This document shows positions 4,353 through 8,478 of a DNA stretch of 51,669 bases, in pieces. The position numbers were made by a program, and so were the translations under genes. Source of the stretch: Acidobacteria bacterium 13_2_20CM_57_17 (GTDB taxonomy: Bacteria > Acidobacteriota > Terriglobia > Acidiferrales > UBA7541); assembly GCA_001914785.1 (NCBI GenBank), contig MNDE01000050.1, forward strand, positions 1 through 51,669, read 5' to 3'. Under the pieces are notes generated by a model that saw only the letters and a list, made by a program, of their open reading frames with translations, ran no database searches and had not been told where the DNA came from. The stretch's first letter is position 1. Every line of letters starts with the position of its first letter.

Positions 4353-5096
4353 TTAAGCCCGGGCCTTCCGCTGCCGGAGGGCTTCAAAGAGGACCACGCC
4401 GGCGGCAACCGAAACGTTGAGAGACTTCACCGGGCCGGTCGTTGGCAACGAAACAACGAAATCGCATCGCTTGCGCGTCAGTTCATGCAAGCCTTGCCCC
4501 TCGCTGCCGAGCACAATCCCCACCGGCGAGGTGTAGTCCACTTCGGTGTAATTCTTGTCCCCCTGCTCATCGAGGCCCACCAGCCAATAACCCGCTTCTT
4601 TCAACTCTTCCATCGTGCGCACAAGATTCGTCACCTTCGCGACCGGCAAGTGCGCCAGCGCTCCAGCGGAGGCCCGCGCAACCGCGTCGGTAAGCCCCGC
4701 CGCACGCCGTTCAGGAATCACCACCCCGTGCGCCCCCGCAGCCAGCGCCGTTCGAATGATTGCTCCGAGATTGTGTGGATCTTCGACTCCATCCAGCAGA
4801 ACGATTAGCCCAGACTGTCCGTGCCCAGCACCATTGGCATGCGCCAGAATGTCTTCCAATGTCGCCGCCGCGCGCGCTGCCGCCAACGCCACTACTCCCT
4901 GGTGATCTTTCGAATTTGCCAGCCTGTCGATCTGCCCGCGGTCCTCGAACCGCACCGGGACCCCGTGCTTGCGCGCCAGTTGCACGATTTCTTCAACTCG
5001 CGTGTCCTGCCGCCCTTTCGCAATCGCGATGCGATCGATAGGCCGCCACGCCTCCAGCGCTTCCTTAACCGCATGTATCCCAGTCAGCTTGTCCAT
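4353..5096 (-). CDS. rlmB: 23S rRNA (guanosine-2'-O-)-methyltransferase RlmB (SpoU/TrmH family)
   Basis: GIHAVKEALEAW..., LLDGVEDPHNLGAIIRTALAAGAHGVVIPERRAAGL, GIVLGSEGQGL, LPTTGPVKSLNVSVAAGVVLFEALRQR. Confidence 0.93.
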   Translation of the reverse strand: MDKLTGIHAVKEALEAWRPIDRIAIAKGRQDTRVEEIVQLARKHGVPVRFEDRGQIDRLANSKDHQGVVALAAARAAATLEDILAHANGAGHGQSGLIVLLDGVEDPHNLGAIIRTALAAGAHGVVIPERRAAGLTDAVARASAGALAHLPVAKVTNLVRTMEELKEAGYWLVGLDEQGDKNYTEVDYTSPVGIVLGSEGQGLHELTRKRCDFVVSLPTTGPVKSLNVSVAAGVVLFEALRQRKARA

Positions 5097-5145
5097 GGAG
5101 TAGTGAGTCTACCGTCGGCCGCCCGCAGTTGAAAGCAGTAGGTAG

Positions 5146-5165
5146 GACAGGCATTCTTGCCTGTC
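5146..5165. repeat. Short palindromic intergenic repeat (REP-like), copy i
   Basis: GACAGGCA-TTCT-TGCCTGTC; same core recurs at 16617 and, in variant form, at 16655. Confidence 0.7.
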
Positions 5166-5206
5166 TTCCGTGCACTAAGGCATCCCCAGCGCGTTAGTCG
5201 CATTCG

Positions 5207-5758
5207 TCAATCCAGCGCCGAACAAAATTCCACAATTCTCTCGCGTGCCGATTTTACCGGCACGCCAAAGGAAAGTGCAGCCGCCTCATCCAATAGCAGA
5301 ATCACCCGGTCAAGCTCCCCTTCCCCTGCACGCCCAGCCAGCGCCAGCCGGATGGGATGAAACAACTCTCGGCCCCGCAACTCCATTCCGTCCTTCAACG
5401 CCGTGACTATCTCCTTGAATCTTTCCGAGGTCAGCGCTTTCCCATCCAGTAGCAGCAGCGCGACTCGGCGGAGCACTTCGCGTGCTGCATAACGCGAAAG
5501 GACGACGTGGCTTTCCACCCGCGAGATTATTTCGCGCGCGTCATAATGAAAAACCAGTCCAAGCAGATCGGCAAGCGCCGCCCGGTCAGAGGCGTGGCCT
5601 CCGAGCATCGCAGCCGCCTGTTCGCACCAGACCTGTTGCTCCAGCGAAGGCTCTGCCGCCAGCAACCCGCGTTCGCGCAGAATAGCGACGACGTCGCGCG
5701 CAGTGAAGACACTCGCAGCGCCAACCGGCACATTAGAAGGATAATCAGGAGCCATCAA
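5207..5758 (-). CDS. Stand-alone glutamyl-tRNA synthetase anticodon-binding (C-terminal) domain-like protein
   Basis: ...LTSERFKEIVTALKDGMELRGRELFHPIRLALAGRAGEGELDRVILLLD resembles the GluRS C-terminal domain; no HIGH/KMSKS catalytic part present. Confidence 0.7.
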   Translation of the reverse strand: MMAPDYPSNVPVGAASVFTARDVVAILRERGLLAAEPSLEQQVWCEQAAAMLGGHASDRAALADLLGLVFHYDAREIISRVESHVVLSRYAAREVLRRVALLLLDGKALTSERFKEIVTALKDGMELRGRELFHPIRLALAGRAGEGELDRVILLLDEAAALSFGVPVKSARERIVEFCSALD

Positions 5759-5827: not shown

Positions 5828-6307
5828 TTATCGCGAAGTCAACGTGGCAACCACATGCGCCGCGATGGCTTCCCCGCGGCCAATCGCGTCAACACCCTCG
5901 TTGGTCTTCGCTTTGAGATGAATCTTCTCGGCGCCCACGCCCAGCGCCTTCGCCAGCGCCTCTCGCATCTTCGGAAAATGCGGCCCCAGCTTCGGTTTTT
6001 CCGTGATCACCACGGCATCCACGTGCTCAATCGCAAATCGTTTTTCATCCAGCAGCTTTTTCGCGTGTTCCAGAAAGAGCATGCTGTTCGCGCCCTTCCA
6101 CTTCGGATCGGTGTCCGGAAAATGCGTCCCAATGTCCCCAAGTCCCGCCGCCCCAAGCAGCGCATCGCAAAGCGCATGCGCCAGTACGTCCCCGTCCGAG
6201 TGCCCCACCGGCCCCTTCTCGAACGGCAACTCAATCCCACCCACGATAAGTTTTCGCCCCTGTTCTAGTCGATGCAGGTCGTAACCGATTCCGCAGCGCG
6301 TGCTCAT
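5828..6307 (-). CDS. ispF: 2-C-methyl-D-erythritol 2,4-cyclodiphosphate synthase
   Basis: RCGIGYDLHRLEQGRKLIVGGIELPFEKGPVGHSDGDVLAHALCDALLGAAGLGDIGTHFPDTDPKWKGA. Confidence 0.96.
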   Translation of the reverse strand: MSTRCGIGYDLHRLEQGRKLIVGGIELPFEKGPVGHSDGDVLAHALCDALLGAAGLGDIGTHFPDTDPKWKGANSMLFLEHAKKLLDEKRFAIEHVDAVVITEKPKLGPHFPKMREALAKALGVGAEKIHLKAKTNEGVDAIGRGEAIAAHVVATLTSR

Positions 6308-7020
6308 GCCCTCGTGCGCTCGCGTTCTAGGTAGAACCGCGCCAATTCCATATCCGCCGGCTTGGTGATTTTCATGTTTCGCTCGGAACCCAGCACGACG
6401 TGCACGTCGTGCCCCATACGCTCCACAAGTCCCGCCTCATCCGACGCATTGACTCCATCCGTCTCCGCACGCGCAAACGCTTCTTTCAAGAGTTTCGTCG
6501 AAAACGCCTGCGGCGTCTGCGCCAGCACTACGCGCTCACGCGGCACCGTGCCTGTAATCAACGCTACGTCTTCCGGCAAACTCGCGCGCTTCACTTCCTT
6601 GACCGTGTCCATCGCCGGGATTCCAAGTATCGCAGCCTCGCACCGCCGCGCTTCTTCTATCACTCGCGCGACCTGCTCCGGCGTCACGAACGGCCGTACC
6701 GCGTCATGCACCAGAACGATTTCTGTTCCGTTCGCCACCTCACGCAGCGCCGCCGCCACCGAATCCTGCCGCGAATCTCCGCCTTTCACCACCCGCACCG
6801 CCTGCTTGAATTTTTCCTTCTTGATCCGCTCTTCGAGCCGTGCCACTTCATCCGCCCGCGTTGCCACAATAATGTCCGTCACCTGCGGGCACGCCGCGAT
6901 CCGCCGCAGGCTCAGGATCACAATCGGCGTTCCATCAAGCTCTAGAAACTGCTTGGGCGTTTCCGCGCCCATGCGCGTTCCCATCCCGGCCGCGGGAAGA
7001 ATGGCAGCGATTCGGCTCAT
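6304..7020 (-). CDS. ispD: 2-C-methyl-D-erythritol 4-phosphate cytidylyltransferase
   Basis: IAAILPAAGMGTRMGAETPKQFLELDGTPIVILSLRR...LVHDAVRPFVTPEQV...; overlaps ispF by 4 nt. Confidence 0.95.
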   Translation of the reverse strand: MSRIAAILPAAGMGTRMGAETPKQFLELDGTPIVILSLRRIAACPQVTDIIVATRADEVARLEERIKKEKFKQAVRVVKGGDSRQDSVAAALREVANGTEIVLVHDAVRPFVTPEQVARVIEEARRCEAAILGIPAMDTVKEVKRASLPEDVALITGTVPRERVVLAQTPQAFSTKLLKEAFARAETDGVNASDEAGLVERMGHDVHVVLGSERNMKITKPADMELARFYLERERTRA

Positions 7021-7203
7021 GTTTGGGGCGATTCCACCCGGACGTTTCAGGGCATGGCTCGCAAACTTCAGAGTGTACCTCAAGCGGGGGCGCAGGGCGA
7101 AATTGGATGAGTGTGCCGCAGCCGGTCAGTTTGAATTTTCTGAATCGTGACAGTAGGGGTCAAAATCCAAAGTGACCCGCTGCCGCGTGTGGCGCGCTAT
7201 CGG

Positions 7204-8478
7204 CTAATTGGCGTCGGGTTCAGGTAGGACGACGCGAGCCTGGCGCTCCAGCGCGCCCTGCTCCTGCAGACGGTTCGGTGTTGCTGCCCGGTTCCCTGTT
7301 TCCGAACGCGCCATGCCGTTACTTTCTCCGCGGCCCGCGCCGGCAGCGTGTCGCAACGTAGGCGCCGTCTGCTCCGCGCGTTCTTCCAGCCGGCCAAAAA
7401 TCATCTTCCCCGCCGTCGTCTGGTGCACCGACGTGACAACAATGTCGACGCCCTTGTTGATCAACCGCCGCGCGCCATCCACCACGACCATCGTTCCGTC
7501 ATCCAGATACGCCACGCCCTGATTCGCTTCCTTGCCTTCCCGCAGAATCAAAACCTTCATGGGCTCGCCTGGTAGCACCGCAGGCTTCAACGCATGCGCC
7601 AATTGATTGACGTTCAGCACCGAAAAGCCTTGCACCGTGGCCACTTTGTTCAAATTAAAGTCGTTGGTAACTATTTTTGCGCCCGTACGCCGCGCCAGTT
7701 CCACGAGTTTGTGGTCCACGTCCCCGGCCTGAGGCGCATCCTCTTCCAGAATCCGCACTTCCACTTGCGGCATTTTCTGAATTCGTTGCAGCACTTCTAG
7801 CCCGCGCCGTCCTCGCTGCCTCTTCAGCGAATCCGAAGAATCCGCAACCATTTGCAATTCGTGCAGCACAAACTGCGGAACTCCGAGCACGCCTTCCATA
7901 AACTGTGCTTCGCATATCTCCGCAATCCTTCCGTCGATCAACACGCTGGTATCCAGAAGTTTCATGGATTCCGCCGCAGTGGACTTCTTCCCAAAGAACC
8001 CGTCCAGCGCGTTCACGTGCACTTCTCCGCCCCGCCCCGAACCAAGCACCAGCCCCAAATAGCCAAAGCCAAAGAGTGCTGCAAATTCGAGGAAAGATTT
8101 GGTCGGTTCGGGCTCATCGGTGCGCGAAATCACCAGGGTTACAAGCAACGCCGCAAACACTCCGAGGACCGCGCCAAACGCCCCTCCCAGCAGTCCGCCC
8201 AAGGCCGCCCGGCGCAATCGTAATTCCGCAAACAGAATCGCCAGCGCAATCAGAACTCCCACTCCAGCAGCCTGCACTCCCCCGAGTCCGAACGGCTTCA
8301 CCGTATAACTCACCGCTCCCGTGCACGCGAGGAGGAACGCTCGAACCGCCCAGAAATCCCCGCCTCGCCGCGATCGCCATGCAGGACGCACGCGCACGCC
8401 AGTTTCTTCGCCCTGAGGTGAAATTTTCAATTCCGGAGAATGCGTGCGCCGCTGCGCTTCACTACCCATCCGGCTCAT
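7204..8478 (-). CDS. PIN/TRAM domain membrane protein (YacL family)
   Basis: N-terminal TM segments, LLDTSVLIDGRIAEICEAQFMEGVLGVPQFVLHELQMVADSSDSLKRQRGRRGLEVL, C-terminal TRAM-like KEANQGVAYLDDGTMVVVDGARRLINKGVDIVVTSVHQTTAGKMIFGR. Confidence 0.92.
   Translation of the reverse strand: MSRMGSEAQRRTHSPELKISPQGEETGVRVRPAWRSRRGGDFWAVRAFLLACTGAVSYTVKPFGLGGVQAAGVGVLIALAILFAELRLRRAALGGLLGGAFGAVLGVFAALLVTLVISRTDEPEPTKSFLEFAALFGFGYLGLVLGSGRGGEVHVNALDGFFGKKSTAAESMKLLDTSVLIDGRIAEICEAQFMEGVLGVPQFVLHELQMVADSSDSLKRQRGRRGLEVLQRIQKMPQVEVRILEEDAPQAGDVDHKLVELARRTGAKIVTNDFNLNKVATVQGFSVLNVNQLAHALKPAVLPGEPMKVLILREGKEANQGVAYLDDGTMVVVDGARRLINKGVDIVVTSVHQTTAGKMIFGRLEERAEQTAPTLRHAAGAGRGESNGMARSETGNRAATPNRLQEQGALERQARVVLPEPDAN

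Follow-up and report, generated by a model that had tools for sequence, protein, structure and literature searches.

Arc1p and Trbp111 are non-catalytic tRNA-binding partners of aminoacyl-tRNA synthetases and act in trans, and the second glutamyl-tRNA synthetase (GluRS2) of Helicobacter pylori is specific for tRNA(Gln). Bacterial GluRS were separated by Dasgupta and Basu into GluRS1, with an H-phi-GG motif, and GluRS2, with an H-phi-GN motif; two acidobacteria carry both, and the acidobacterial GluRS2 was predicted to act on neither tRNA(Glu) nor tRNA(Gln) (PMC3927822). In a review of synthetase duplications, YadB is the only GluRS case listed (PMC9437257). The gene described here comes from Acidobacteria bacterium 13_2_20CM_57_17 and lies in a stretch of 51,669 nucleotides, the whole of which is called the window. 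The features of its locus are collected in Table 1.

Table 1. Features of the GluRS-domain locus in the window.
Feature	Position	Strand	Basis
Stand-alone anticodon-binding domain CDS, almost certainly of GluRS2	5207..5758	-	ORF; PF19269; AlphaFold2 model and Foldseek; family alignment A1
Pfam Anticodon_2 match, protein residues 40-145	5324..5641	-	Pfam
GluRS C-terminal signature around RELFHPIRLALAGRAGEG	5318..5371	-	alignment A1 and GluRS alignment
C-terminal tail VKSARERIVEFC	5222..5257	-	alignment; fossil of the tail in an orphan-less genome
rlmB, downstream neighbour, slot boundary	4353..5096	-	PF00588 and PF08032
ispF, upstream neighbour, slot boundary	5828..6307	-	PF02542
ispD, same gene string	6304..7083	-	PF01128
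yacL-type PIN/TRAM protein, same gene string	7204..8478	-	PF01850 and PF01938

The open reading frame called in this region of the window has 183 codons and is a real, conserved gene, hereafter the orphan. The ATG at 5755 (182 aa) is preferred as the more likely start over the adjoining TTG at 5758 (183 aa). In the encoded protein, which is mildly acidic (pI 5.6), Pfam finds the Anticodon_2 domain (PF19269; E 1.5e-6, 29.1 bits, above the cut-off of 23.6); the catalytic domain (PF00749) with its HIGH and KMSKS motifs is absent from both the Pfam search and the alignment. The NCBIfam model gltX_bact is matched only at its C-terminal positions 375-458 of 470, and the score against TIGR00464 (20.3 bits) lies below the cut-off of 289.95 that defines the GltX enzyme. 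Since the catalytic domain is missing, catalysis by the orphan as a GluRS is excluded.

An AlphaFold2 model of the orphan, built from 27 relatives, is all helical with a pLDDT of 95 and a pTM of 0.90. GluRS accounts for all 27 of its top PDB fold matches in Foldseek, the first 14 at a probability of 1.00, with modest E-values (0.017 upwards) and TM by query of 0.51-0.64. The protein is therefore predicted to have the all-alpha cage fold of the GluRS C-terminus. When the PDB was searched by sequence, neither the protein itself nor the profile of alignment A1 gave anything significant, only chance matches (FtsH and others). In view of these empty searches and the modest Foldseek E-values, the case for homology rests on Pfam, the fold and the relatives of the gene. 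Overall, the orphan encodes the anticodon-binding domain of bacterial GluRS alone.

The genes yacL, ispD, ispF, the orphan and rlmB follow one another on the same strand, the orphan ATG lying 72 bases past the ispF stop. Wherever the genes around an orphan were read, it sits between ispF and rlmB. The preliminary description of this DNA had proposed the same gene order and a protein resembling only the C-terminal anticodon-binding part of GluRS; Pfam and the reading frames bear out both, and the fold comparison that it suggested brought up GluRS in all of the 27 best matches. The full gltX that it suggested looking for elsewhere in the genome is present as well, as described below.

The genome from which the window comes is an incomplete draft (77.6% complete) with one protein that has a GluRS catalytic domain, a GluRS of 508 aa on contig C147. 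The main GluRS of this genome is a GluRS1, on a different contig from the orphan. Across the order there is one full-length GluRS per genome, no GlnRS or GluQRS was seen, and GatB was found in 52 of 52 good genomes. Therefore, GluRS and GatCAB together presumably produce Gln-tRNA(Gln). In a small number of genomes of the order, the GluRS match was missing or limited to a piece at the end of a contig, and these cases are taken as gaps. One of them, G087, is 99% complete and carries the orphan; neither PF00749 nor a GluRS1 protein query found a GluRS catalytic domain in it, and in its genus mate G088 the only trace of GluRS1 is a fragment where a contig ends. The missing GluRS of G087 is probably a gap. 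Two tRNA-Cys(GCA) genes were also noted in the window genome, on separate contigs (L252 and L258).

Elsewhere in the phylum, the profile of A1 matches full-length GluRS (best E 4e-26), mostly in frames of about 500 aa. Many of these Acidobacteriota have the order yacL-ispD-ispF-gltX-rlmB, and the orphan aligns to the last ~150 residues of the gltX in that slot; many genomes with a slot gltX have a second GluRS, of the C147 type, at another locus. All 26 of the GluRS1 (C147-type) proteins examined read HVGG, and H[VI]GN is found in 20/20 proteins of the GluRS2 type, most of them in the slot. In a tree of the anticodon-binding domain, the orphan, a shortened form called mini-GluRS (see below) and GluRS2 are separated from GluRS1 and E. 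coli GluRS by a split with support of 100/99. Placing the orphan with GluRS1 is rejected by a topology test (p-AU 0.02), and a single clade of orphan and mini-GluRS is not rejected (p 0.48). Therefore, from motif counts and tree together, the slot gene is GluRS2 and the orphan corresponds to its C-terminal half; the orphan is almost certainly the surviving anticodon-binding domain of GluRS2. As to the full-length enzymes, the HIGH (H[VI]GN) and LSKR motifs are intact in 20/20 acidobacterial GluRS2 (L082, L086, L076 and others) despite their predicted inactivity. A seeming stand-alone domain outside the order, a short frame in G178, proved to be a gltX cut at a contig end.

Within the order, the slot is occupied differently from family to family. 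In f88 it holds a mini-GluRS of ~330 aa without HIGH and KMSKS, which aligns along GluRS2. In the HIGH region, LHVGNARTALFNW has given way to variants like LTVESARNALFLW, and variants like WGQWSGRTRV stand in place of the LSKRHGATS loop. The catalytic domain has lost its middle, while the parts for stem contact and anticodon binding are kept. The mini-GluRS proteins are mutually 60-74% identical, so constraint acts on them as well. Their AlphaFold2 model is good only in the N-terminal 110 residues, so the C-terminal half was judged from sequence; the fold search still returned GluRS (best 2o5r). In f89 and in f1, the family of the window, the slot holds the bare anticodon-binding domain. In the tree built from rlmB, ispF and ispD, the first family to split off is f88, and f89 stands next to f1 (support for the fork of f89 and f1, 92/81), an order that fits successive steps from enzyme through mini-GluRS to bare domain. 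The interval between ispF and mini-GluRS also contains a small, very basic ORF (MRQKxF...KKHQKRRKRAKQK) in the f88 loci L124 (888-1630), L125 and L126, and in L124 and L125 an ORF that by eye resembles secreted Spy/CpxP proteins; the window has neither of the two between ispF and the orphan.

Clean losses of the orphan recur in some lineages of f1 and amount to five changes on the tree, at least three of them forced by well-supported branches. In the orphan-less genome G085, the spacer before rlmB reads VKTVRAHILKFCAALD followed by a stop, a fossil of the orphan tail. G070 (L127, around 4900-5470, minus strand) has a frameshifted copy that has lost the LDRVILLLD region to an internal deletion; this copy is either decaying at present or an assembly error. 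Therefore, the fossil and the broken copy indicate that absence of the orphan in f1 is loss.

Where it has been retained, the gene is well conserved. Relatives with 53-96% identity occur in public acidobacterial genomes, including Acidobacteria gp2 and Candidatus Acidiferrum; no homologue was found in plasmid records. One carrier, L008, belongs to a record named Betaproteobacteria bacterium (BOG_genome_mining.134); since the rlmB-ispF-ispD tree places it firmly inside the clade of the acidobacteria, it is probably a mislabelled bin. In f1, an orphan without internal stops is present in 63 of 89 genomes and in 41 of the 50 good ones, and A1 has 32 invariant columns across its 27 sequences. At dS of 0.15-0.85, most of the closest pairs have a dN/dS of 0.10-0.14, and the median is 0.16; this is somewhat higher than in the neighbours ispF (0.08), ispD (0.09) and rlmB (0.10) and far below 1. 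Retained copies are thus under purifying selection (dN/dS about 0.10-0.16). This disfavours the view that the orphan is a functionless, dying relic that persists through slow erosion. The repeated losses, the deletion and frameshift in G070 and the fossil tail in G085 speak for such a relic, but its retention in most good genomes, its invariant columns and the conservation of mini-GluRS as well make it very improbable. The idea that a full gltX was shortened by an assembly deletion gains a little from the incompleteness of the draft; however, dozens of independent assemblies carry the same short intact ORF, in the same slot wherever the context was read, so the orphan is not an assembly artefact. 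A chance resemblance to GluRS is opposed by the fold and family tests, and hardly any weight is left to either of these two explanations.

The preliminary description had seen in the ORF a gltX that eroded where it stood until its tRNA-recognition domain was left, with a clean frame and perhaps an independent role, and had named a different fold or an assembly deletion as what would overturn this reading. The survey of related genomes argues against such a deletion, and the full gltX of the slot, the mini-GluRS of f88 and the bare domain after it bear out erosion in place. What has to be refined is the identity of the eroded gene, which is the second paralogue GluRS2 and not the main GluRS. 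As for the independent role, selection on the gene stands and the kind of role is a matter of interpretation.

Several retained residues bear on that role. The Arg of HPIR (residue 137), with which the RxALxG motif begins, aligns with the first residue of RVAVTG in E. coli GluRS. It is invariant throughout A1, as are other basic residues, eight invariant Arg/Lys in total. The tail VKSxRxRxLEFC is strongly conserved in the orphan and is common to GluRS2 and mini-GluRS, but not to GluRS1 or E. coli GluRS. The Pro that follows the RxALTG motif in GluRS2 is an invariant Gly in the orphan, and base-specific contacts may therefore have changed. At the position that, judged from the aligned sequences of E. 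coli GluRS and GluRS1, corresponds to the Arg of discriminating GluRS, which we take to be Arg358 of Thermus thermophilus, the orphan mostly has His or Gln, with Arg in 1/27 sequences, whereas GluRS1 keeps the Arg. Most orphan sequences thus lack the residue expected of a discriminating anticodon reader, as far as the alignment can tell. The effect of this residue differs between species (PMC3927822).

A proposed course of events can be described as follows. Among the ancestors of this acidobacterial lineage, GluRS2 almost certainly lost its catalytic half in place, and GluRS1 presumably took over all glutamylation as GluRS2 lost catalysis. The orphan would still have the alpha-helical cage fold of GluRS2 and, as an auxiliary protein without catalysis, would bind the anticodon arm of tRNA(Gln), of tRNA(Glu) or of both; it might hold or protect those tRNAs, or mischarged Glu-tRNA(Gln), for GluRS1 and GatCAB. 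A GluRS2-derived domain that lost its catalytic half in place and serves as an auxiliary tRNA binder is probably the best explanation overall; that binding of the anticodon arm is the activity retained appears, from the conserved residues, slightly favoured. The mildly acidic pI, the Gly in place of the GluRS2 Pro and the repeated losses in f1 weigh against it. The word auxiliary is used since relatives live without the orphan after several losses. No correlate of loss was found in the anticodon residues of GluRS1, which are identical with or without the orphan, in GatB, which is present in both cases, or in GlnRS and GluQRS, neither of which was seen in the order. The tRNA(Gln) isoacceptors show no clear correlate either: both were confirmed in genomes with and without the orphan, and in G047 and G084 the UUG isoacceptor did not turn up. 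Since the losses in f1 came without clear change in GluRS1 anticodon residues or tRNA(Gln) genes, the orphan is not essential for the formation of Gln-tRNA(Gln).

A more specific form of this explanation makes the orphan a trans-acting subunit for tRNA(Gln) specificity or handover, serving GluRS1 and GatCAB as a new kind of transamidosome accessory. GluRS2 would have lost catalysis stepwise, from enzyme to mini-pseudoenzyme to bare domain, and its tRNA(Gln)-reading half would steer tRNA(Gln) between the sole GluRS and GatCAB. Descent from GluRS2 is consistent with this, as are the pairing, across the order, of a single GluRS with GatB in the absence of GlnRS, the discriminating Arg kept in GluRS1 and mostly replaced in the orphan, and the presence of both tRNA(Gln) isoacceptors in the window genome. 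However, orphan-less relatives have the same GluRS1 residues and some of them have both tRNA(Gln) genes, the locus shows no linkage to gat genes, and the published prediction for acidobacterial GluRS2 is inactivity on tRNA(Glu) and tRNA(Gln) alike (PMC3927822), so the handover subunit is offered tentatively, as a possibility with the balance against it. Less likely still, the orphan may have lost tRNA reading and become a protein-protein module, a regulator or scaffold acting on GluRS1, GatCAB or an enzyme encoded by a neighbouring gene. The acidic pI and the conserved tail of GluRS2 type, absent from GluRS1, would suit such a module, but RNA binding accounts more naturally for the eight invariant Arg/Lys, one of which is the motif Arg common to tRNA-binding GluRS.

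Compared with the known systems, the orphan most resembles acidobacterial GluRS2 of the H[VI]GN type (PMC3927822), with which it shares the slot between ispF and rlmB, the LFHPIRxAL-G motif, the VxSxRER tail and the side of the tree; it differs in lacking the entire catalytic and stem-contact part and in its length of about 180 aa, against about 500 aa in GluRS2. PF19269 Anticodon_2 forms the C-terminus of the enzyme in the GluRS examined, whereas it makes up the whole protein in the orphan. The likeness to Arc1p and Trbp111 would lie in tRNA binding in trans, which for the orphan is a proposal; folds and origin differ. In literature searches, with most subscription journals outside their coverage, no stand-alone or truncated GluRS anticodon-binding domain was found to be published; provisionally, therefore, such a half appears undescribed, whereas catalytic halves of the YadB type are well known. 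YadB (Glu-Q-RS) is, like the orphan, a GluRS paralogue cut down to a single half, but it is the catalytic half without the anticodon-binding domain (PMC9437257), and the orphan is its exact mirror image. What would be new is a synthetase-derived paralogue in which the halves are reversed relative to YadB and the intermediate stages are preserved: full GluRS2, mini-GluRS, bare domain and fossil in one fixed slot form an unusually complete record of the passage from enzyme to non-enzyme. If the orphan still reads tRNA(Gln), a protein of 20 kDa would make it testable how bacteria with GatCAB serve tRNA(Gln) as well as tRNA(Glu) with a single GluRS. In this order of soil Acidobacteria, a spare GluRS was almost certainly whittled in place to its tRNA-reading part, the part that YadB lacks.
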